Shown here: positions 4,701-39,635 of the stretch, one piece after another
Layout of the letters: each line of letters begins with the position of its first letter
Numbering within the stretch: the stretch's first letter is position 1
Origin: Chalciporus piperatus
Lineage: Eukaryota; Basidiomycota; Agaricomycetes; Boletales; Boletaceae
DNA length: 39,947 bases
Direction of reading: 5' to 3'
Assembly: GCA_038093975.1 (NCBI GenBank)
Contig: JBBPTG010000225.1
Coordinates: forward strand, 1-39,947
The notes under the pieces: generated by a model
What the model saw: the letters and a program-made list of their open reading frames with translations, nothing else
Databases searched by the model: none
What the model was told of the DNA's origin: nothing
Program-made: the position numbers and the translations under genes

Positions 4701-7700
4701 AAAATCCACTAACCCTCTGTAACTTCGAGATACGTGGCGGGAACGTTGAAGACGATACCGTTGCGTTCGGCTTTCCACCAGTCCTGTTCGGAACTGTCGA
4801 TGATAGTGAGAACGTCGCCTTCAGCGAAAGCAAGGTCGTCAGAATTGGTGCCCTCGTATGCGTATATGGCTGTGGCGTGTACTGTATGCATTGGGTTAGA
4901 AACAGAGATTTCATGCAAGAAAAATAGCGGGGCGCACCTTGCCCGACTTTCTGAACGTAAGTTTGAGGGAAGAATCCAGTTTTACCGTCCTTGACCAGCG
5001 TCCCGTGCCACCAATCCCCACCAGACTTGGATGGGTGAGCAACGATGATGATATTCACGTCGAAGCCTTCAAAATCGCCACATCAATGGCATCAGCATCA
5101 TTTTCAAAATAAACAAAACGCCGCCGCCACATAAACAAACAACGGAAATACGCACTCAAGTCTTCCGCTCGCTGACCTTCATATGGGTACAAGGACCTGA
5201 CTCGGAACTCTGAAAATAAACCAGATTGAGCGTCTGATCTCGACCCATCTAAATTTGAACAGGAATGTACGCTTACCCACGGAATGATCGATATCGGCCA
5301 TCAACTCGGATCCACCTTCAGGGGCATGGTCAGAGACCTGAATCACAGGAACGCTCGATCCGAGCTCTTCCTCATCTTCCTCGACCGTCGCAGGCAAATG
5401 ATCAATTTCCTTCCGTTCCACATCAGCAGCCAATCCATTATACCAATCCACAGAGTCCCTCTGTCGATGACCCAGTGACAAGGACGTGTTCTGTTCCACC
5501 GGAGGCTCAACAGGCGGAGGCGGAAGTGTGAATGTCGCTGCGGGATCGGAAACGGAAACGGACTCGGTAGGTGGCGAAGCTGGACGAGCGACCGCATTTA
5601 CGTGTGGGGGAGGCGCATTGTCACCAACAACCTTTCCTGATGTCGCAGCACCGCTTCTGTCATTCGTGACCGCCTTTCTCAAACGTGCGCCACCCTGAAT
5701 GCCAAGAAGCAATGCGCTTCTTGGAGCGGGGGCAACGATCGGAACAGAAGGCGCGGCAGGTGCAGGTGGGGCAGATGACGGCGGGGGAGGGGGTGCAGGT
5801 GCAGGGGACACAGGGCTACCTGCAGTCGGAGCGGGAGCAGCCGACTGGGGACGCGAGGGCAACAAATTTCCAAACAACTGTGAAGCCAAATCCCTCCGTG
5901 TATCCCTCGTCGCAAGTTCTTCATCACTGCTGTCACCCTCGTCTTTCTCCATGACATCGTCCCAGTCATCATCACTGTCCTCTGGAGCGGTGTGGTACGA
6001 CGCTTTGACTGGTGGAGGAATGCCGGGGCTCTTGGGAGGTGTAGGCACGGAAGGTGGCACAGGTGAAGGCTGAGCACGGAAGAAAGGATTGCTATCTCCA
6101 TTCGCAGCAACCGTTGTCGGCGCAAGGGAAGCAGCAACTCCACCTTCTTTCATCCTACGACTAAACGGATTGTTGCTCGCTTTGTCGCTAGCAGGGGCAG
6201 ATACAGGGGGAGCGGGAGGTGGTGGCGGTGGTGGTGGTGGCGGAGCTGCCTCTTCGGGTTCAGGCTCTTCCGCTTGTACGGGCGCAGACACAGGTGGTGC
6301 CGGGGGAGCAGGCGGTGTCAGAATAGCAGGCGGTGCGGGAGGGGAAGGAGATGGAGGTACAGAAGCCGCATTCTTAGCAGCCAAAAACTGATTCCTCCGT
6401 TCCTTGTACGCTTCCTCAGCTTTGCGGGCTTCTTCCTCTTCCTGCTCGAGCCTACGCATGAGGTCAGCACGCGCCTCCGCCTTCTTCCTCAGAGCTTCCT
6501 GCCTGGCTATAAGGGCAGCATCTTCAGCATCTTCTTCGGGTTCGACGGGAGCCGGTGCACGAACGACAGGAGTGGGAGCGGCTGGCACAGGGACAGAGGG
6601 CACTGGCGGAGTGGGGACTTGAGCTGGTGCAGGCGCAAAAGGGGCACGAGGCGCACTTCCCTTCCTCGGTGGAGGCGGGGCAGGTGCACGGGATTTAGGC
6701 ACGGGTGGAGCGGTCTTTGATGGGGTAACTGTTGGCGTAGGCACGGGCCCAGGAGCTGGGAAAGGCGCTGTCCTCGTCGGCGTCGGTGTCGCCGTTAGTG
6801 TAGCGCTCTTGCCTTCCTTGAGCGCCTTTTCAGCCTCGAGCTTCTCCCTCCTTTGCTTTCCGCGTTCTTCAGCTTGCCTCTCGGCGTCGCGTGCCCTCTC
6901 TTCCGCTTCCTTCTTCTCCTCTGCAAGACGTGTTTCGATGGTGGTGTCAAGAGTAGGGGAAGCGGTGGCAGCAGCCGAGGGGGCAACAACACCGAGAGCT
7001 TGCTTGCGGGCTTCTAAGCGTCTTTGAGCCTCGGCACGAATATATGCCTGGCGTTCCTCAGCAGTCATGTTCTTCATCGCAGGCGCTGGAGAACGAGAGG
7101 GTGCAGGAGGAGGCGGGGGAGCAATACTGTTAGCGGGCGGGGCAGGCGGCGCTGCAGGGGGCGTGCGTATGCTGGCAACAGGAGACGATTTCCGATCCTG
7201 AACATCCCGAACATCCGAGCGTCTCTCGCGATCGTCTTGATCATATCTCGACGCGCCCCTAGGATACGGTCGTTCTTCTTCCTCTCTGTATCGCGACGCG
7301 GGTGAGTACCTCCCACCGTCGTCACCTCCAAATCTTCCGAACCGCTCATTCCTTGTATCCCGATCACGCGCCCACTCTCGCTTCTCCCTCCCTCGCCTCG
7401 CTTCTCTCTCTTCCACTTGCTTCTCGAGCGCTGGAACCTCCTCATGCATCAATCTCACAAGTTCCCTCTCAAGTCGTCTCCTCTCTTCATCCTTGGTCGT
7501 GCTCCTCGGACCCTTTGAGACGTATTCCAGATCGTCTTGCAACCTCGTAATCCGATACCGCAAACCTTCCAGGTCTCTGTCCAACGTATCTGAATGTCGC
7601 TCGTTCGCCAACGTATCGTCGAGCATCTTCTGGGTGTTCAATAATTGTCTCTTGATGGATGACAAGTCAGCGGTGGCAGGACTAGCGTCGTCAGCGCGAG

Positions 7701-9144
7701 ATCGGACAGCACTCCTGTCTACGTGACGATTGCGAGGTTGGTAGAAACCGCCAGGAGGCTCGGCGTCTTCATGTTTGTATACAGTCGCGTCCTGTCGGCC
7801 GCCTCGCTGAGTGAACGAAGAAGACGAGTTTAAAGAACGGTCTTTCAGATACGACACCGGGCCATCGATTCCCGATGGAGAACGCGCACGAGTGTCGTTC
7901 TTGAGGATGTCCTTGAGGAAATTGACAGAGGTATCGAGATCCCGAGAGGATGGAGGAACAAGATCGGCAGGAAGCTCGTCAGGGACATCGATTCCGTTGA
8001 CTCCTAGAAAACAAACGAAATATTAATTAGCAATCCGAGGATCAAGTAACGCACTGAATGAAAGCGTAAATGAATTCATACGCACTGCGGTAGATCAATC
8101 CCATGGCAACATGAAACTCTGCCAAATTTAGTTTGCCCCGATTATCTGCGTCGGCGAGAGTCCTGTGAAGAAATCATTAAACCCAAAACCGCCGAGATGA
8201 TGATCGCAACGAACTGACCAAATCCTCGCGAGATCGATCGTATCCAATCCACTTTGACCAAAGGCCTCTAGCGCTACTCGACTATCGATGAAACCAGTAC
8301 CCTGCTGATCCCAAGCGCGGAAAGTCCGATCGTATTCTTTCTTCTCCTCCTTGCTCAATGCCCAGGACATTGTAGGTGCGTTTCCCCTGCCATGCGCCTG
8401 ATTGTATTGCTGGAAGCTCTGCTGTAGTGACAAACCACCCAGCTGTTGTTGTGGCGGCGGGGCAAGCTGCGGGGCACCTCCAGCTGTATAAGGTGCTGAT
8501 ATGTTGGCGGGCATGAACAAGCTTGACATCATTTGGAGACGAGGGTCTACGAATCCAGTGACCTGAGGCACCAATGAAGCTGGTGTGCGTCCTGCAAACC
8601 CAGTAGGTTGCGAAAGGAGTCCAACACCCGTTGGTTGAGCAACCAAACTGGGAGTACCATGTGAGAAGGTGGAAAGACCACCTAACCTACTCTGGTTCGC
8701 ATTCAAGAAGTTGGATGGTTGTTGATGGATGGGTGGGGGCGGTGGTGGTGGTTGCGCGCTTTGCTGATATTGAGAGGGAAGGGGAGGAACTGGGGGTGGT
8801 GGTGGGCGTTGTTGGAAGTTAGAAGGGGTGCCTGCGAATCCGGTTGGCTGGGTTTGCAAGAAACCAGCGTTTAGGCCTTGTGGGCCAGGATAACCAGTTT
8901 GTTGAGGTTGGTGAAAGCCTTGGGGACGCGCACCGAATCCAGTTGGCTGCGGGGCGAGGCCTCCAAGCCCTGAGCCCAACGATTGTATACCTGGATTGCC
9001 TGCAAAACCACCGTGGGTTTGTTGGAACTGTGGGTTTGGATTAAGCTGCTGAGCGGGTTGGAGCTGCTGGTGCTGCGGTTGTGCAACACCAGGATAGCCT
9101 GTTTGCATGGGATACTGGAATCCCTGTTGGCCCCACTGGGACAT
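1796..9144 (-). CDS. cin1: Intersectin/Pan1-type endocytic scaffold with RhoGEF module (EH-coiled coil-WH2-SH3-SH3-DH-PH), Cin1-like
   Basis: CDS complement(1796..2014, 2078..2475, 2525..2585, 2642..2725, 2783..2887, 2951..3016, 3118..4361, 4714..4881, 4938..5066, 5156..5209, 5277..8003, 8086..8162, 8219..9144) keeps one frame for 2,085 aa. Domains: Gln/Pro-rich N-terminus with five LxxQxTG motifs (Ark1/Prk1 kinase sites in Pan1); EH at about 259-370 with an EF-hand-like loop (DADNRGKLNLAEF); charged coiled coil; proline-rich centre; acidic DDDWDD patch; WH2 at about 1095-1125 (ALLLGIQGGARLRK); SH3 at about 1245-1303 and 1305-1361; acidic exon; DH at about 1745-1935 (LLVPMQRLTRYPLL, spliced); PH at about 1950-2080. 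Known relatives act at endocytic sites on actin/Arp2/3 and Rho GTPases. The start at 9144 begins MSQWGQQGF. Removing a 352-nt intron skips a stop at 4709-4711; retention gives 1,361 aa ending after the second SH3. Alternative: two adjacent genes split at that stop. Confidence 0.88.
4362..4713 (-). promoter_or_regulatory. Probable alternatively retained intron with a stop codon inside its splice donor
   Basis: On the minus strand the second SH3 ends ...GAG G|GTTAGT. Read through, this gives Gly and TAG, a stop immediately after the SH3 fold. If GTTAGT is the donor, joining to the acceptor ...GCGACAG|AC at 4362 restores the frame into the acidic exon leading to DH-PH. At 352 nt the intron is four to seven times longer than most others in the gene. 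It contains long pyrimidine-rich tracts on the coding strand, which could equally be a promoter for a separate DH-PH gene. Confidence 0.65.
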
Positions 9145-9626
9145 CCTGTATGACCTGAGTGGATGGTGAGTAGTAGGGGGTGGACTAACGTTCGAGTACA
9201 GAGTATTAGAAAAAGTCCAAGGAATGTGGAGGACGATCAAGGTCTGCGACTCAGTGGCTGCGCAGTCGATGCGACGGCTGTGCTTTTTATGTCCAAATCA
9301 GGTTTTGTCGAAGAGAAAATAAAGAAATTATCAAAGTAAATATCTCGTACGCTTTACTACTTCCACCATGACTCTCTAGTACATATCTACCCCGCCATAG
9401 CCAGCCTATGATAGCCTTGCTCACAGTAGGTGAATACACTGGTGAATGTCCGAAGGTAGGTATCTTCTATCCGCATCAGTGACCCCGACACAAGTACACA
9501 AAATGGACTTGAGGCAGTTCGCGGCGCACCTGGCACTGCCTCGAACGGCTATTTAGACCTCAGGATTCATGTCCTGTATTGCTGCATATGCACCTGCCCC
9601 ATCTCTAAATCTCCGTGGTACACAAC
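9145..9626. other. Divergent promoter region between the intersectin-like gene and the first DUF6593 gene
   Basis: No gene seen. From about 9305 the sequence is homologous to 13620-13984 upstream of the second plus-strand DUF6593 gene. Shared blocks include TCGAAGAGAAAATAAAGAAAT, GTATCTTCTATCC, GTACACAAAATGGACT and CTGTATTGCTGCATATGCAC. The left edge of the tandem duplication therefore lies within about 160 bp of the scaffold gene's start codon. Confidence 0.6.
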
Positions 9627-26414: not shown

Positions 26415-26578
26415 ACACGAGATAGAGGTGGAGGTTGGTGTACGAGATAGAGAGAGATGGTGGTGAAGGGGAACCAACGGAGATCAGAACATATGGGGAT
26501 CGGAGTGATCCGAAACCCGACACTGCACGAGTCTCGGCTCTGTCCGAGCTCGTGCCTCGCCCTCAGATCCTCATACTT
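26415..26578 (-). repeat. Split direct repeat A2
   Basis: 164 bp, identical by eye to 31861-32024. Directly abuts B1. Confidence 0.92.
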
Positions 26579-30837: not shown

Positions 30838-31850
30838 GTGCGGCTGAGAAGTGCCAAGAGAGCGGCAGGTAAAGAAGATGAAGCATAAGGCAGATGCTCA
30901 CGTGAAGGCAAGGGAAAGAAGCCCGAAGAATTGGGTGGTATAGGCCCAGGGGAGAACCCCGGAAGACCAAGGAGGGAAAGCATAGCAGATTGGAGGTCCT
31001 CGCGAGATAACGCGCGAGGTGAAGACGAAGCTAGCGGAGATGAGAAGGACGGATTCAGAGAGCTAGACGCTCCAGGGGTTGCAGGGGCGAAGAAGGTATT
31101 AGATGAGGAGGACGCCCCAGGAGTAGTGGGAGCGAGGAAGGTATTTGCGGAGGATGTAACAGGGGGAGTCGCGGGAGCGATCTTGATAGTTGGAGGCGAG
31201 AGGGCGCGAGATTTACCTTTGTCGGCGGTGGATATCTTCTTAGGGGAGTTCGTGGACTTCTTGGGGGAGCCCGTGCTCTTCTTGGGAGAACTAGCTAAAG
31301 TTGACGCAGAGCCTGGCGGGTTCACCAGTGTAGCCGAGGTCGAACCTGGAGATCCGCCCGCCGCAGAACTTGAGGCAGGGGCTAAGGAGAGCGAGACACC
31401 CGGCGAGCTAGAGATGCCGAGGGAGCTGGTGACAGCGGCGAGTTTCTGCTCGGCGAGCTTCTGTTCGGCGAGCTTCTGGTCGGCGAGTTTCTGGTTGATC
31501 TTGGCAACGGAGCGCGTTTCACGATTCACGCCCGGGGAAACAGGGGCAGAAGCCTGGCGAGATCGCTTCGTGGGAGGGGGAGCAGCCGAAGGTACAGAGA
31601 AACCTCCGACAGCAGGAGGAGAGGGTTGTCTAGAGCGGCGAGAACCTACCTGAGGAGAATGGAGCAAGGAGCTGCCAGACTCGAGTATGAGAGATTCCAT
31701 GGTGGAGGAATCGAGAACATCGCCGGTGATATCGTCGTCGAGAACGCCGAACTCAGCGTCGTCTATGTTGGGGTTCAAATGCACGCCCGCCGGGGGGGGT
31801 GCACGATTGGGACGGTGTGGAGGGGTACGCGCGATGGAGGAAGAAGGCAT
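30813..31850 (-). CDS. Gag-like N-terminal protein, first ORF of the Ngaro-type element
   Basis: Starts MPSSSIARTPPHRPNR at 31850, ten bases inside repeat A1, and runs 345 aa. Mostly Pro/Ser/Ala low complexity. Recognisable parts: KLADQ/KLAEQ repeats at 31435-31500 (short coiled coil), three SPKK motifs (SPKKSTGSPKKSTNSPKK) of the kind that bind AT-rich DNA minor groove, and tandem FFAPATPGASSS repeats. No enzymatic domain. It overlaps the next ORF by 25 nt in another frame. Position next to the 5' repeat fits a gag role; exact function unknown. Confidence 0.65.
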   Translation of the reverse strand: MPSSSIARTPPHRPNRAPPPAGVHLNPNIDDAEFGVLDDDITGDVLDSSTMESLILESGSSLLHSPQVGSRRSRQPSPPAVGGFSVPSAAPPPTKRSRQASAPVSPGVNRETRSVAKINQKLADQKLAEQKLAEQKLAAVTSSLGISSSPGVSLSLAPASSSAAGGSPGSTSATLVNPPGSASTLASSPKKSTGSPKKSTNSPKKISTADKGKSRALSPPTIKIAPATPPVTSSANTFLAPTTPGASSSSNTFFAPATPGASSSLNPSFSSPLASSSPRALSREDLQSAMLSLLGLPGFSPGPIPPNSSGFFPLPSREHLPYASSSLPAALLALLSRTWLISYPL

Positions 31851-31860
31851 GATGCTGAGA

Positions 31861-32024
31861 ACACGAGATAGAGGTGGAGGTTGGTGTACGAGATAGAGAG
31901 AGATGGTGGTGAAGGGGAACCAACGGAGATCAGAACATATGGGGATCGGAGTGATCCGAAACCCGACACTGCACGAGTCTCGGCTCTGTCCGAGCTCGTG
32001 CCTCGCCCTCAGATCCTCATACTT
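31861..32024 (-). repeat. Split direct repeat A1 (5' end of the element)
   Basis: 164 bp, identical by eye to A2 at 26415-26578. It should contain the element promoter. Confidence 0.92.
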
Positions 32025-32338
32025 CAAGTTGTTGCCCAGCCCAGCCTGCACACTGGGAGGGACGCATGACCTACAGCTTCTTCTTACTGGTTCCTTCAAA
32101 GTCGGTTTACAGAACACCTTCTACATGCCAGGGTCTGGCAATCAACGCAACGCTGCGATCACTGAATCAGCACCCGAACTCCCTTGAATGGAGTCGAAAG
32201 AACTGACCATCAAAAATATCGGCAAGAAATCACCACACTCCTCGCATTGTCCGCGACCATGTTAATCTCGGCTCCAGATCCAAGCCGGAGTTTGAAAACC
32301 TACCAAAACAAAAAACACACTCGAACTCCGGCAAAGGA
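32025..32338. other. Spacer between the Ngaro-type element and the RecQ/DUF6589 element; no gene seen
   Basis: No coding region recognised. The last 66 bp (32276-32341) are a hairpin-forming block. Confidence 0.5.
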
Positions 32339-32341
32339 TCT
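32276..32341. repeat. 66-bp hairpin block (MITE-like) at the left TIR
   Basis: AGATCCAAGCCGGAGTTTGA at 32276-32295 pairs with TCGAACTCCGGCAAAGGATCT at 32321-32341 (one mismatch, one extra base), around a 25-nt A-rich loop. It touches the outer end of the left terminal repeat and is absent from the right end. Confidence 0.75.
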
Positions 32342-32375
32342 GGTGCATTTCGTATAGCAGGGGGTAGGTCCAGTC
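32339..32375 (+). repeat. Left terminal inverted repeat of the RecQ/DUF6589 element
   Basis: TCTGGTGCATTT (32339-32350), eight variable bases, AGGGGGTAGGTCCAGTC (32359-32375). Reverse complement matches 38068-38104. Confidence 0.8.
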
Positions 32376-32460
32376 ATGTGACTTTGTTGATTGCGCAGCA
32401 TGTAGCTACGAGTATACTAACTTCGACTACTAGTCCCGCGTGCTTCTCGATGCCATACAT

Positions 32461-35250
32461 ATGATCCCCCCTGTCTCGACATCAACTGAGAACCCTGCTG
32501 CCTCGCCTGACACCTCAGCAGATGTCCTGAAGGAAGCCCAGGACAGGGGAAAAAAATCCCGCAAGTATGACACTCTAATCACTCGCCTGAAGATCACGGA
32601 GGAATTTGAAAAACGCACGAGCGGCAAGAAACCTTACGAGTGGCAGCTCAATGTGGCAGAAGCCTTGCTGCTTGGGCTCGACTGTGTGGTGGTTGCAGGT
32701 ACAGGGGCAGGGAAGACAATGCCCTTCATGATGCCTCTACTCGTCGAGCCAAAAAAACATGTCATCATCATTTCACCACTCGATGCACTCGAGAGTGATC
32801 AGGTGAGCAAAGAAGTACTTACAATGAGCACAATTGACATCATCTAGGCTCGAAGATTTCTCGATCTCGAGCTCACTGCAGTTGCAGTGAATGGAAAGAC
32901 CTGGAACTCGAAGCTACAAAAGGTTAGTAGTATCATATACCTGCCCCAACCATGGTTATGCTCAGTGCGAGACAGGAACTCGAACGACGAGAACACCAAA
33001 TCATCTTGACATCACCCGAGATGTGCCTTCAGCACTCTGGGTTTCGTGAACTCCTAAGTGGCCCCAAACTCGCTGGCCATATTTCGGCAATCATCATTGA
33101 CGAAGCTCATTGTATCTCCCAATGGGGAGACAAGTTTCGCGAAGACTATTTGAAGCTTGGCACACTACGAGCATTCGTGCCAAGCCAAGTCCCTGTTCTC
33201 GTCACGTCGGCCACAATGCCCCCTCACGTTCTTAAACAGGTCTGTACCACGATGCATATCGACATGGAAACATCATACTACCTTAATCTTGGTGTTGACC
33301 GGCCAAATATCACCTGGGAAGTTAGACATATGAAAGCTGCGAAGAGCGACCTCGAATCCCTTCGTCTCGTCCTCCCAAAGAAGTTCGGGGGCGAAGGGAA
33401 TGATGGCGACTTCAAACAAACGATGGTCTTCGGTGATGACATCAATATCTTGATGTCAGCTTGTCGGTGGACACGACAAAACACATCGCCGGATTTACAT
33501 GGCAAGGTGGCTGTGTTCCACTCGCGACGGAGCCCGCGAGCAAAGCAAATAGTCTTGGAACGGTTCGCGAAGGGTGAGATTAAAGTCTTGTTCACGACGG
33601 AGGCTGCAGGAATGGTGAGCATTTGTTTACTTGCGAGCAGTGACCATTGGAGACTAAACCTTGCTGGTAGGGTTGTGACATGGCACATATTGAGCTCGTT
33701 GTCCAATTTATGGTACCTGCGTCGTTGTCAGTGTGGATGCAACGAGCTGGCCGAGCGGGTCGCTCGCCTGGGTTGCAATCTTGTGCAGTCTTGCTCGTCC
33801 AGCCAACTGTCTTCCAGCAAAGGGTGAAAAAGGATTCTGACAAGTCTGATGGTCAGCCCGACTTCGTGAAAAATATAGAGGAAGGTCTCCGTACCTGGTT
33901 AGAAGCTAAGAAATGTCGTAGGGACGTTGCAGACGAGTACTTTGCGAGCGGCGCGAAACGAAAATGTGGGTTCGACAGTTTGTGTTTGTGTGTCCACGCT
34001 AAGCGCTAACACGTGTTGTGCAGCACCCACAGCAGCCTGTTGCGACAACTGCACTCGCCAGACAGTACTCCCAGACCGCCCGTTGACGCCAGACCCCCCT
34101 CCTGGCACCATTCAGTTTATTTTCGAGTCCCCCAGCAAGAGTCCATCTCGAAACGGCAAACGGACAATGGTCCCTTCATCCGAGGGACCAGTCTTGACGA
34201 TGCGATGCGACGACCACCTCAAACAAGCGAAAACGCAACTCGTTCAATGGCGCTACAATACATGGCTCACTCACTACGCTAACGCGGTACCCTTCGGTCC
34301 CTCTCCCCTCCTTCCCGATCCCGTTCTCGACAAGATCGCACACAAACGGTGCGCGGACGTCAATGCTCTGGTTGGCCTTGGATGGAGTGCACAGTGGGCG
34401 AAAAAACACGGCGAGGACGTTCTACAGCTCCTCCGTCCGATGGACACGAGGTGCGATGCAGAAAGGAAGGCTGAGCAGCAGGAGAGGGCAGAGGCGAAGA
34501 AACGAGAGACGGCCGAGCGCAACGCCATCAAACGAGCTCACACGAAGGAGGAAAGGGCGCGAAAGCGTGCAGAACAGCAGGCGCTACCCAAGAAGCCCCG
34601 TCCGTCTCGTTCCCGGAAGCCCGTTCTTGAGTCCTCTGTGACCGAGAACGTTTTTTCGTCCCAGCCATTCGTCCCCGCCACTCCATCATCTCAGTCTGAC
34701 CATATTCGACCCGATTTCGATCCCACCGACCTCTCAGACTCATCCGACGATTCATTCACTGGTCGTTCAATCTCGTACTATGCTACCCAGTCCCAACCAA
34801 CACTCGGCCCTACTTCGTCGCTTCCCCCAGCTCTGCAATACGGCGCCGCTCGTTCGCCACTCACTGCCACTCCGCAATCACGCGACGGTGTCGCTGTATA
34901 TCCGCTAACGCCTCTCAGCGCACCACGACCGTTCAATCCCGCTTCCACCTTTTCCCCCATTCATTATCTTCCCCCGCCGTATTCGACACCTCCTGCCACA
35001 CCCGGTTTTCACGAACTGGCGAGATTCCGGCCCGCTCCGAGTCCGTCTGTCGTTCACACACCCAGGCCTACACAGTGGTCGCTTCCTGGTCCCGTTTCGA
35101 CAGTGAACCCCTCGCGCACACAGACGGCCGTGCCGTTTTCTCAAGTCGCGTCCTCGTTGGATGGTGAGGGGTAAGTCCGAGTCTATTCTATTTTTCCTTA
35201 GTACTGCAAGGCTCACACTAATCAGGCACATTCGTTACACGAGATTGTAG
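32461..35250 (+). CDS. RecQ-like DEAH-box helicase of mobile-element type
   Basis: CDS join(32461..32802, 32848..32922, 32976..33614, 33671..33965, 34024..35170, 35226..35250), 840 aa, all GT-AG and frame-consistent; without the last intron it stops at 35174. Motif I AGTGAGKT at 79-86, Ia HVIIISPLDAL, motif II DEAH at 181-184 followed by CISQWG (a RecQ signature), motif III SAT at 217-219, motif V region LFTTEAAGMGCD, motif VI QRAGRAGR at 376-383. A Cys cluster CCDNC follows the helicase core where RecQ carries its zinc-binding part. The rest is a basic coiled coil (Lys/Glu/Arg-rich) and a Pro/Ser-rich tail; no HRDC domain. The enzyme should unwind DNA 3'-5' using ATP. All helicase motifs appear intact. 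Confidence 0.85.
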
Positions 35251-35254
35251 TCTA

Positions 35255-35812
35255 CTACTGATCAGCTTGTATATTAGTAGTAGTAGTCATGTCGCCCCAT
35301 ACCTCTGCCGTCGAGCGCTCATATGCGCGATTTTTCCACCAATTCTCGAATGTACCTAGCCGTTCGATATCAACTGCTCCGATATCAATAAAATCTTTTG
35401 CTTCGTTCTTCGCCCCACCCCGTAGCTTCCTGCCAGCTGTGTATACATGTATATTTGACTTGATGTATTGTTCGGTGAGTTTCGCCACATCAGCTTCCCT
35501 TGTGGGGACACCATGGTGGGCTCCACGTGTCAGAGTTTTGAACTCGCTTTCCATGTGACGCTGCAATGCACGAAGTGTTGGAATGGCAGGTGATACTTTA
35601 TGCAGATATTTCCAGGTCGCCCCAGGCCCAAATGAGTGGTACGTAACCTTGAGTCGACAGTAAGCAACATGAATGGGTGAAGAATCTTTCATACCTTGAT
35701 GTCCCCTATATTCTGCTCTTGACCTTTGTCAATAGGAGTCCACCCACTGGGCTGGCCAGACCGATTCATCAGCCAACAATATTTGCGAACATAATTTCTA
35801 AATTACAACTTT
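35255..35812 (-). pseudogene. C-terminal part of the DUF6589 gene, separated by stop codons and a frame change
   Basis: After the stop at 35813 the family's usual continuation is still readable in another frame: CWLMNRSGQPSGWTPIDK, EQNIGDIK, then across a 47-nt GT-AG intron (GTATGA...CTCAAG) VTYHSFGPGATWKYLHKVSP and on to the stop at 35255. Between 35813 and about 35775 there are two in-frame stops and no phase-consistent intron, so the gene looks broken by a small change, unless a non-canonical intron removes it. Its stop lies four bases beyond the proposed helicase stop. Confidence 0.6.
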
Positions 35813-37993
35813 TTAGCCCCTGTGCAGCATGAGATAAGAGAAAACAACATGCTTTACATCTTCTGGCCATTCTCGCTTCAATCCTTGCAGAAGCTCCAGT
35901 ACCTCGATGGTATACTTTGAGTTTCCACCTCCTGCGAACCGGAATAAAAGAGTCGATAGCATATCCTCCATCCGTCCAACATCTCCAGACTTGATGGCTG
36001 CTGTCAACTCGATGTAGCTCAGTACATCACCATTGAACATGATCCACTGTGATAACACTCCATCCTGCTCCTCATCGGAAAGCTGCTTCAGCTTTGCAAG
36101 CCCATGTCGAGATGCATGTTCATCGATAAGCCTAATTGCCAGTGAATGCAACTCGCCTGGAGATTTAGTTGCCAAGTCAGTGAATGACTGCTTCCCAACT
36201 AGTGCGAGCCATGTTGCACGGATATGTGCCTCTGCAATATGGCGGAGGGCTTCATCTAGATGATGCCAGAATGGCCCCTTGGTTTCAGTCTTCTGAAGTC
36301 CCTTCCGCTGGAGGAGGTCAAAGGCTTGCTGAAGGGATCCAGTGATGGAGGAAAGGCCAAGATACTGCTTGTGAAGGGAATTGGCGAAAGCCATAATGAG
36401 ATGGAACCAGCCAAAGATGGGAATGAGGTAGTCCATGCGATCAAAAGAGTTGAAGTCCTCATAGCGATATCGGAATAATCCTCGGAGTCGCTCGACTGTC
36501 AGCTGATCTCCAGCCCAACCTATCAGCCGCTCAAGCCCTGTCTTCTTCATCTCCTCTGCACTGTCGATTCCAAGCTGACGGTAGAACTCTGCCATGATCC
36601 TGTCATTGCCCTCATAGCTGGCCTCCTCAATGTCGACAGTTTGTAGTATGCGTTGCTTGACAATGTGATTTGGGTCGCATGGAAGTATGTTGACTGCAGG
36701 AGGAGGCTGGAAGTATGTGTCATCACGGAACTTGTAGCTGGCGAACTCAGGGGTGTCGAGAAGAACCTGAAGGATATGGTAGACATGTTGGCTTTTGATA
36801 CGGAGGTGCGCAGCTTGATCACCAACAAACAAGTCTTCGAGAGCGAAGTGTTCACGGCTACCTTCGACGCGATGAGCATGGAAGGATCGATTGATGCCAG
36901 GGGGCAAGGTTGCTTCGGGGGGGAGTAGCCAGACAGTCGCCGCACAGCCACTAACGAAATGACTCTGATTATGGAGACGCTGCGAGAATACGCGCATAGG
37001 AATATTGACGTTGTCGTGGGATATAATCCATGGTACATGCTGAATCTCCTGTCGGACTGAATCCATCGCCGACTGCGACAATGTGCCATATGCGTTTGCG
37101 GTCCACTTGTGGCTCATGACAAGACCGAGCGCATGAAGTGCGTCAAACGCACGGGCGGAGAGGCCGCAAGCCTTCAGGTAGATAGCCCACAGTTTGGCAA
37201 CACGATTGCGATGGTGCGAGCGTGTATACTGTGCTTGTGACAGCTGGTGAAGGATAACCTGTGAGCAACGACTCTCGTTAGAACACGAGGAGCGATGAGT
37301 CCACGAGGGACATGCCATTTCAGGACTCTTGTGAGTGTTGCGTGTCCGTTGGTTGTCACTGTACGACATCCGTTCAATCACCCTCCAGGCCGTCGGGCAA
37401 CGAGTCTTGAGTGTGGAGATGAAGGCTTGGAAGTCGAATGAGGTGAGGTGAATGTCGGAGAGCTCGGAAGGCGGCGAGGCGAACAGGGGTGCAGCTCGCT
37501 CCATTTCTTGCTCGAGTAGCCGAAGAATGCAGTCCATTGCGAATTTTTCCATCGCTTGGCGTGCACCAGCGGGTCGTCGACCCTTGTTCTTGTTGCGGGG
37601 GGGCTTGTACCAACGCGCGAGGACATTGGGGAGTTCTTCGCTGAGTAAAAGGCCTGCGCGCGCGAAACGGACGCGGTCGTTGGCAGTACAGCTCTCGTCG
37701 CCCCAGCTAAGAGCATCGAGGAAGAGGGATAAGGTTAACCCTTGCTCGCTGATGGTGTCGAGAACACGGAGGACCTTCGGCAAAAGGTCCTGGCCTTGCA
37801 GCGCGGCTTTCTTGCGACGAGTTTGCTCGAGCTGGATGGGTGGGAGTGGTTCCTCAGGTTCGTCGGGGGGAGGGGGAGGGTCATCTTGAGTAGTATTTGC
37901 GAGTAGACACCCGATGCAAGTGCAATCGGGCTCACATTCGCCGTCCTCGAGTGATTCGAGCTGGCGCCACAAATCAGCTTCGTCGTTGTCCAT
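35813..37993 (-). CDS. DUF6589 family protein, candidate transposase of the two-gene element
   Basis: 726 aa open frame. Near the N-terminus a Cys cluster (C20, C24, C26, C29; CEPDCTCIGC) could bind zinc. The family core covers most of the rest: HDNVNIPMR, ALEDLFVGDQAAH, LERLIGWAGDQLTVERLRG at about 485-505, FGWFHLIMAFANSLHKQYLG, and GPFWHHLDEALRHIAEAH. The conserved Asp-rich points (SHDNVN, GDQLT, FHLIMAFA) resemble the spacing of an RNase H-like fold, but assigning a catalytic triad is inference. DUF6589 is a basidiomycete-enriched family of unknown biochemistry. It converges with the helicase inside shared TIRs. The start at 37993 is the first ATG, 75 bp from the TIR. The family's C-terminal part continues out of frame at 35255-35812. 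Confidence 0.75.
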   Translation of the reverse strand: MDNDEADLWRQLESLEDGECEPDCTCIGCLLANTTQDDPPPPPDEPEEPLPPIQLEQTRRKKAALQGQDLLPKVLRVLDTISEQGLTLSLFLDALSWGDESCTANDRVRFARAGLLLSEELPNVLARWYKPPRNKNKGRRPAGARQAMEKFAMDCILRLLEQEMERAAPLFASPPSELSDIHLTSFDFQAFISTLKTRCPTAWRVIERMSYSDNQRTRNTHKSPEMACPSWTHRSSCSNESRCSQVILHQLSQAQYTRSHHRNRVAKLWAIYLKACGLSARAFDALHALGLVMSHKWTANAYGTLSQSAMDSVRQEIQHVPWIISHDNVNIPMRVFSQRLHNQSHFVSGCAATVWLLPPEATLPPGINRSFHAHRVEGSREHFALEDLFVGDQAAHLRIKSQHVYHILQVLLDTPEFASYKFRDDTYFQPPPAVNILPCDPNHIVKQRILQTVDIEEASYEGNDRIMAEFYRQLGIDSAEEMKKTGLERLIGWAGDQLTVERLRGLFRYRYEDFNSFDRMDYLIPIFGWFHLIMAFANSLHKQYLGLSSITGSLQQAFDLLQRKGLQKTETKGPFWHHLDEALRHIAEAHIRATWLALVGKQSFTDLATKSPGELHSLAIRLIDEHASRHGLAKLKQLSDEEQDGVLSQWIMFNGDVLSYIELTAAIKSGDVGRMEDMLSTLLFRFAGGGNSKYTIEVLELLQGLKREWPEDVKHVVFSYLMLHRG

Positions 37994-38067
37994 TGATAAG
38001 ATTAGTGTATTGCCGAGTAATCCCTTCGTACAAAATGATCGACTACGAACGGGCTACGACCGGCCCG

Positions 38068-38104
38068 GACTGGACCTACCCCCTTCTCTATCAAATGCAC
38101 CAGA
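38068..38104 (-). repeat. Right terminal inverted repeat of the RecQ/DUF6589 element
   Basis: GACTGGACCTACCCCCT (38068-38084), eight variable bases, AAATGCACCAGA (38093-38104). Confidence 0.8.
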
Positions 38105-38163
38105 CGTTCTAGGGAACAAACGCGCGACTGAACCTTACATCTTTTTTGCCTCCGATTTGAGAC

Positions 38164-39635
38164 TCAGCCGTCACAGTGGGTAAGGAGCGCGTCGTGCCCT
38201 AGATCGTCGGGAACGAGACTACGACCATGTCTGTATGTCCACTCGTGATACTCACACTCGTGATCCTGGCGAAGCATGTCCATCCGTCGATGAACTCGCT
38301 CCGCATGAATCTCGGGTTGTAACGCCGCCGCCCGCACACCAAATTCATTGCGTACTCTTCTTTCAGCGTCCGTCACGAGTAAATCCTCGTCCCACTGCAA
38401 GCACCCACACGTCTTCCATCGCGCCGCACACAGATAGCAGAACTGTGTCGAACAGCGACAGGTGATGTGATAACATCCCTGACTGAGTTCGACGATGGTG
38501 TTGCACCCTGGACACGACTGCCAGCCTTTTTCAGCGGCAGTTGCACGCAGCTCGAGTGTGGATTGGTGCTCGACACAGTCTTCTCCAGGGTGCGACACGT
38601 TCTTGCACTGGGAGCACGCGACTGTGTTGCAGGCCGTGCATGTGAGTCCAATACGGAAGCCCTTTTCTCCACTCGTGGATTCTCCAAGGAAGGTGGAACA
38701 GTGTGGGTTCGGGCAGTATACCCTCGAACCGGCAGCAATCGAATACTCCCGGTTTTTGGCGAGGAATTTGGTACGGAGTGAGGCATCGATGAATCGGTAT
38801 ACGATCGTCAGAGGGAGTAGTTGGTGGCAGCAGCGGAGTGGGTGAAGACTCTCGTCGCGCAGGGAGGTCTCCACAAGATCGACGACGCAGCCGCGACAGT
38901 AATAGTGTTCGCAAGGAGCCTCGAGTGAGCGAGTTGTGGGCACGTCGTCCCCACATATTACGCACTCAACGCTGCTGATTACCGGTGTAAGCTTTCGTGC
39001 TGGCTGCTGCAATATAATCACGGGCTCACCGGGATGAGTGATTGCGATGTGCCATGTCATCAGCACTGGCACTTTGTGTTTTCGAGTCGATATGAGCATC
39101 TTCTAGAAACACGGTGATTACCTCTACATCTGTCTCGGATGCGTCACCTGTAGCTTCCTGATGACTGGACCGATGTTCCCTGATAGTGGTCAGTGGGTAT
39201 AATAGGGGCGGATAATTGGATGAACCTCGCAGGATGGCGGATTTGCATCATCCGCTGCCACAGCGTTTCCCTTGGCAGCGCATCTCCACGTTCCAAGGCC
39301 ACAGCTGCCCTATGATCATCGTGCTCTGCCTGGTCCAGGTAAGCGAGCGCCCTGAGCTGATCACCGTCTGACTCGATCGCGCGGTTGATGCTGGATGCAA
39401 ACTGATAGTCGTGTATGAGACCGACGACCGATTTTACGGAAGAAATCTGAAATTCGAGCGCCAACATTTCGTCAGACAGTGGGACGTCCTCGCGCTCCTT
39501 GCCTTTTTGAGTGGCTTGGATGGCAGCTATGTCGTCGAGCACCAGCTTTGCGACGAGGAGCTCGGATGCAGTATCTTGAGCTCCGAGTCTGTCGGAAAGC
39601 TGGGTCTCGAAGGCAGCGTTGCCTGTGAAGGCCAT
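38164..39635 (-). CDS. RBR-type E3 ubiquitin ligase (RING1-IBR-RING2)
   Basis: CDS complement(38164..38971, 39030..39179, 39226..39635), 455 aa, introns 58 and 46 nt. N-terminal helical region, then RING1 from about residue 190 (CVICGDD, CEHYYCRGC), IBR (YCPNPHCSTFLG, CTACNTVACSQCK, HPGEDC), and RING2 (WQSCPGCNTIVELSQGC). The RING2 sequence GCYHITCRC has the Cys (about 359) that in the RBR family forms the thioester with ubiquitin before transfer. The end, FCYLCAARWKTCGC, completes the zinc ligands. All expected Cys/His are present. The substrate is unknown. The ATG at 39635 is chosen; the open frame extends a little upstream only from a TTG. The 3' flank abuts the two-gene element. Confidence 0.9.

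Follow-up and report, generated by a model that had tools for sequence, protein, structure and literature searches.

The window analysed here is the whole of contig JBBPTG010000225.1 from Chalciporus piperatus (39,947 nucleotides, forward strand). It contains a RecQ-like helicase gene on the plus strand and a DUF6589 (PF20231) gene on the minus strand, lying tail to tail within an inverted repeat. Both belong to a 5,959-bp mobile element flanked by target-site duplications (TSDs), whose features are listed below.

32254..32262, plus strand: left TSD, CGACCATGT, identical to 38222-38230 and present as a single copy in contig C222 as CGACCATGC
32263..38221, no strand: whole element, 5,959 bp, with borders from identity with copies on C119, C254 and C263 and from the empty site on C222
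32263..32270, plus strand: left terminal inverted repeat, TAATCTCG, a 7/8 match to the right end
32339..32375, plus strand: left arm of the 37-bp subterminal inverted repeat, beginning TCTGGTGCATTT; taken as a terminal inverted repeat in the first-pass annotation
32461..35174, plus strand: RecQ-like helicase gene, model of 833 amino acids, introns 32803-32847, 32923-32975, 33615-33670 and 33966-34023
35255..37993, minus strand: DUF6589 (PF20231) gene, candidate DDE transposase (named for its D, D and E active-site residues), model of 878 amino acids, candidate triad D327, D496, E697
35852-35798 (GC-AG) and 35694-35648, minus strand: DUF6589 introns, the GC-AG one inferred from the frame and homologues
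38068..38104, minus strand: right arm of the 37-bp subterminal inverted repeat, with the element-specific motif CGTCTGGTGCATTT at 38093-38106
38214..38221, minus strand: right terminal inverted repeat, TAGTCTCG, from comparison and alignment of ends
38222..38230, plus strand: right TSD, CGACCATGT, identical to 32254-32262

The helicase introns were set by hand from GT..AG and the reading frame. The Walker A motif of the protein reads GTGAGKT. The start ATG (32461) lies 85 bases inside the left 37-bp arm, and the spliced frame is open to 35174; it stops at 464 amino acids if the fourth intron is retained. A splice acceptor tried at 32965 ran into a stop, and the one at 32975 preserved the frame. 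The DUF6589 start (37993) lies 74 bases inside the right arm, and the hand-spliced frame is open throughout, to the stop at 35255. These models bear out the first-pass annotation, made from the letters alone, in which an inverted repeat enclosed the two genes tail to tail with about 80 bp from repeat to start codon. The 37-bp repeat itself was found where it had been described: 33 of 37 positions are complementary, with 12 and 17 perfect bases flanking an 8-base core, and in 100 dinucleotide-shuffled versions of 31800-38700 the best 37-nt inverted match never exceeded 26/37.

The same annotation had taken the 37-bp repeats for the borders of a transposon, and this part did not hold. The genome (35.5 Mb, 484 contigs, the window being contig C225) was searched, and identity with other copies extended to 32263 and 38221: on the left, identity with C119 and C263 starts 76 bp ahead of the 37-bp arm, and on the right, identity with C119 and C254 continues 117 bp beyond it. 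The 37-bp repeats are subterminal, not terminal, and sit inside the true ends by these distances. Uninserted sequence on C222 (L045) joins both window flanks at the same point and represents an empty site, which suggests that the insertion may be polymorphic in the host. An empty site with other boundaries had been named beforehand as a possible refutation, and the join, at 32263/38221, goes against the boundaries first claimed. C222 matched the window flanks over 241 bp on the left and 1,726 bp on the right at 100% identity, as rounded by the search, except for the ninth base of the target, a C/T difference between CGACCATGC and CGACCATGT that is most simply a target polymorphism. Since the C119, C254 and C263 copies and the C222 empty site agree, the element borders were set at 32263-38221. 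An 8-bp TSD with ends TTAATC was considered, since T follows CGACCATG and CATGCCAG on both sides; it was ruled out by C263, in which C precedes TAATCTCGG and the flank equals that on the right of C254 over 9 bp, and also by a second family, described below, which gives 9 bp.

Both element ends consist of a short TARTCTCG terminus and a conserved subterminal box, TCTGGTGCATTT, and the TAATCTCG motif was common to all seven ends aligned. The motif CGTCTGGTGCATTT gave 21 matches in the genome against none for its reversed control, and the two-part end pattern occurred 17 times against none for the control. Twenty of the 21 CGTCTGGTGCATTT matches fell in copies of family 1, that of the window element, or of family 2. 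The remaining one was on C1, where a lone family-1-like end (TAGTCTCGTTCCC ... TCTGGTGCATTT, C1:777438-777533) may be a solo end or a decayed copy.

Internally deleted copies keep the same ends as the window element. In C119:4839-6196 (minus strand, L004), 0.28 kb from the left and 1.08 kb from the right of the element are 99-100% identical, the middle is deleted, and the copy is bounded by CATGCCAGT on both sides. In C254:31399-34274 (minus strand, L005), the right part of the element, including DUF6589, is retained at 99% identity together with 89 bp from the left region; the helicase is deleted and the contig end cuts the copy. Its right flank opens with ACAAGAGGC, the same sequence with which the left flank of C263 (L051) closes directly before TAATCTCGG. 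C263 retains only 61 bp of the element, and judging from these flanks the two would be the ends of a single insertion split over contigs. Because family-1 copies are 99-100% identical and the empty-site flanks are identical but for one base, the sequences point to recent mobility of the window element.

The second family was represented by the DUF6589/helicase locus of C347 (L052), whose helicase is 41% identical to that of the window. Family-2 copies start TAGTCTCGG and contain CGTCTGGTGCATTT, and perfect 9-bp duplications were found in three of the five copies read at both flanks: ATTCAAACG on C61, ATATACCCC on C15 and AAGTATCCG on C111. C219 (degraded right end), C312, C298 and C339 (one end read each) and C347 itself were left outside this count. 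On C347, the left end is nested, with a solo right-end copy (1919-2100) one base ahead of it, and the right end (8432-8681) forms a large inverted duplication where the contig stops; this arrangement may reflect nested insertion, a hairpin-type rearrangement or an assembly error. The 8-mer ATGCCATT occurs both in the left flank of C78 (L055) and in the right flank of C298 (L061), next to opposite element ends; for a 9-bp duplication its register is off by one base, as might result if a single insertion had been rearranged or had lost a base.

Altogether, the 9-bp TSD is exact in six of eight two-ended insertions from two families, in addition to the empty site. Kolobok elements target TTAA, and none of the six perfect 9-bp TSDs, which vary in sequence, contains it; these duplications contradict an assignment to KolobokH, a Kolobok element with a RecQ helicase as accessory gene, and make it very unlikely. 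The likeness lies in KolobokH being a DNA transposon of fungi only that encodes a RecQ helicase, and a red-alga Kolobok has its helicase on the complementary strand, as in the window element (PMC9587614; this and the other papers given by accession are cited from excerpts). The KolobokH helicase lies downstream of the transposase domain (PMC9587614), whereas that of the window is a convergent gene.

A search with PF20231 gave 46 matches, two of which scored below the cut-off, on 21 contigs, and one with the window helicase exon gave 28 matches on 26 contigs; the statement that both families are multicopy therefore holds in this genome. Both were present on 11 contigs and tail to tail on 10 of them (C225, C91, C347, C168, C34, C215, C219, C123, C234 and C96), the matched stretches being 0.4-4.5 kb apart and the helicase matches on C234 and C96 weak (28-29% identity). 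The pair thus recurs as a unit, in line with the first-pass annotation. With both families so abundant, two host genes could have come to lie side by side within a fortuitous inverted repeat, an explanation that is refuted by the TSDs, the empty site, the ends shared with other copies and the tail-to-tail order on 10 of 11 contigs, and that retains hardly any probability. The TSDs, the empty site and the copies agree instead with the two-gene cut-and-paste element originally proposed.

Protein relatives in other species were taken from the best 120 of 235 DUF6589 matches and the best 120 of 5,516 helicase matches, and 100 DUF6589 rows were used, 20 being omitted since the species name or contig size was absent. 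Within these lists, 75 of the 100 rows came from species also found among the helicase matches, and 33 of the 75 lay on a contig equal in size to that of a helicase match from the same species (one contig being only 5,312 bp), equal size being a proxy for a shared contig that on megabase contigs does not mean adjacency, with no chance expectation behind the 33/75. In Paxillus involutus, a helicase (PAXINDRAFT_12087) and a DUF6589 protein (PAXINDRAFT_12088) have consecutive tags.

Pfam labels PF20231 a 'family of unknown function', and no discussion of DUF6589 or PF20231 was found in our literature search. Among the best 120 matches, the closest relative was from Tylopilus felleus (82% identity), in keeping with a bolete host, and the mushroom members were nearly all deposited as hypothetical or uncharacterized. 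A relative of DUF6589 has a confident AlphaFold model, whose best fold matches were Hermes (hAT), the P element and RAG1 (RAG1/Transib) and which contains an RNase H-like core with a helical insertion ahead of the last acidic residue. Sequence identity to these transposases was just 6-12% in the aligned rows. Duplications are of 8 bp for hAT and P and 5 bp for Transib/RAG, against 9 bp here. In the predicted model of the relative P0004, the candidate triad is placed in the first core strand (D305, strand 300-310), right after the fourth (D474, strand 469-473) and in the last helix (E675, helix 670-686); in a 76-row DUF6589 alignment, D474 and E675 are invariant and D305 is present in at least 90%. 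Because the model best matches Hermes, the P element and RAG1 and offers a D-D-E triad, DUF6589 is very likely a DDE transposase, a role that the first-pass annotation had assigned to it subject to such a fold. A viral fold library gave no match at E <= 0.001. In the Pfam scan of DUF6589 proteins, only DUF6589 was above the cut-off, with no match to Mutator-like elements (MULEs) or any other transposase at Pfam's sensitivity. MULEs make duplications of about 9 bp, and one that had acquired a helicase would explain the TSD length; the Pfam result, which leaves remote kinship beyond that sensitivity, and the repetition of the helicase pairing across divergent families make this extremely improbable.

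AcademH, reportedly described by Kojima (2020, Mob DNA 11:15), is a lineage of the Academ superfamily. The window element is, with high probability, an autonomous-looking cut-and-paste DNA transposon of this type, which is the best reading because every published AcademH feature that could be compared is found in it. AcademH elements encode a helicase, are low-copy and occur in Basidiomycota, Ascomycota and Mucoromycota (PMC10799480); their TSD is of 9 or 10 bp, that of AcademX of 3 or 4 bp, a difference tied to helicase versus nuclease (PMC10045372). The element has a 9-bp TSD, a RecQ-like helicase beside the transposase, a Basidiomycete host and, from the fold model and the D, D and E conserved in the 76-row alignment, a predicted DDE transposase. 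Recognizable protein domains, PF00270 and recQ_fam being named examples, were reported in 81% of fungal Academ copies (1,568/1,938), a reason for their frequent annotation as host genes (PMC6416283, 2019), and putative nonautonomous Academ elements are reported to be widespread in Marasmius oreades. No difference from AcademH was found in the features compared, by description, in these excerpts. AcademX would belong to the same superfamily if the AcademH reading holds, and differs in having a nuclease in place of the helicase and a shorter TSD (PMC10045372). The claim that no described superfamily has this pair was consequently not sustained, AcademH being helicase-encoding and fungal Academ including recQ_fam (PMC10799480, PMC6416283). 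A new DDE superfamily of DUF6589 and RecQ helicase apart from Academ, sharing helicase and TSD length with it by coincidence, is improbable, since fungal Academ with PF00270/recQ_fam, the AcademH TSD and the Basidiomycota hosts are the same three features. In such a case, the Hermes/P/RAG-like fold, 9-bp targets, TARTCTCG and TCTGGTGCATTT ends and an obligate RecQ helicase would define a DDE superfamily of its own that had been lumped with Academ or missed, which we consider unlikely.

Several observations weigh against the AcademH reading. The name is based on the genes present, the TSD length and the host range, Academ having been compared by description only. The helicase scored 196.5 bits, below the recQ_fam cut-off of 219.8, and none of the Foldseek matches, taken by themselves, reached E <= 0.001 (the best being Hermes at 8.6e-3). 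Of the family-2 copies, C78 lacks a matching TSD, and the flanks of C150 match over 7 bases only, with the register shifted by one base. On C391, helicase and DUF6589 are on the same strand, the DUF6589 match beginning at the contig's first base. Ten of the 21 DUF6589 contigs have no helicase match (C400, C254, C48, C462, C43, C62, C360, C60, C102 and C258). From the coordinates, C400, C48, C462 and C43 end 0.9-2.0 kb further on, near the expected helicase place; C254 is a deletion copy and C258 retains part of the helicase 3' region; C62, C360, C60 and C102 have neither a contig-end nor a deletion explanation. Conversely, a DUF6589 match is absent from 15 of the 26 helicase contigs; among these, C374 and C61 hold C347-family copies that are cut or deleted, and others probably carry host RecQ genes. 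The unpaired contigs are explained only in part by contig ends and known deletion copies. Subtelomeric RecQ helicases of fungi were set aside as a source of the helicase, the excerpt describing them without pairing to a transposase gene (PMC4522978).

The element lies in a host gene:

38222..39099, minus strand: IBR-domain gene with the element inserted in its 3' part; in C222 the same frame crosses the site to another stop

In the window, the frame of this gene (38164-39099) now terminates in element sequence, and that of C222 continues to a different tail. A 164-bp direct repeat (26415-26578 and 31861-32024, 100% identical) bounds a 5.6-kb repeat, other copies of which occur in the genome at about 71-98% identity. 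Its end lies 229 bp upstream of the target duplication, and there C222 ceases to match the window; the four long minus-strand open reading frames (ORFs) of the 5.6-kb repeat contain no Pfam domain. Further away are an ORF with an integrase core domain (rve; 42-1184), perhaps a retrotransposon remnant, and minus-strand ORFs at 5179-9240 that contain WH2 domains and, at scores under the cut-off, EH domains, and that may form a single actin-patch/endocytosis gene. Rfam and tRNA scans of the window gave no matches.

Together, the duplications, the cleanly joined empty site and the predicted fold indicate that a DDE transposase moves the element by cut and paste, with target cuts staggered by 9 bp. 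The DUF6589 transposase would bind the subterminal boxes and cut at the TARTCTCG termini through an active site formed by D327, D496 and E697 (window protein numbering); the ends would be joined to target DNA with a 9-bp stagger, and gap repair would yield the duplication. More tentatively, the RecQ-like helicase may open the DNA for this reaction or, during excision or integration, unwind intermediates that are branched or gapped. Because one TCTGGTGCATTT box lies about 100-110 bp ahead of each start codon, the transposase might, speculatively, also occupy both promoters.

The kind of element is apparently already described as AcademH, and the useful new part is a likely identity for DUF6589 (PF20231). 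Should DUF6589 be the transposase of AcademH-type elements, many genes presumed to belong to the host, along with the RecQ-like helicases adjoining them, would be transposon genes and could be curated accordingly. With defined ends, a 9-bp TSD and a recent open-frame copy that has a matching empty site, the purpose of a helicase in a cut-and-paste element becomes directly testable.
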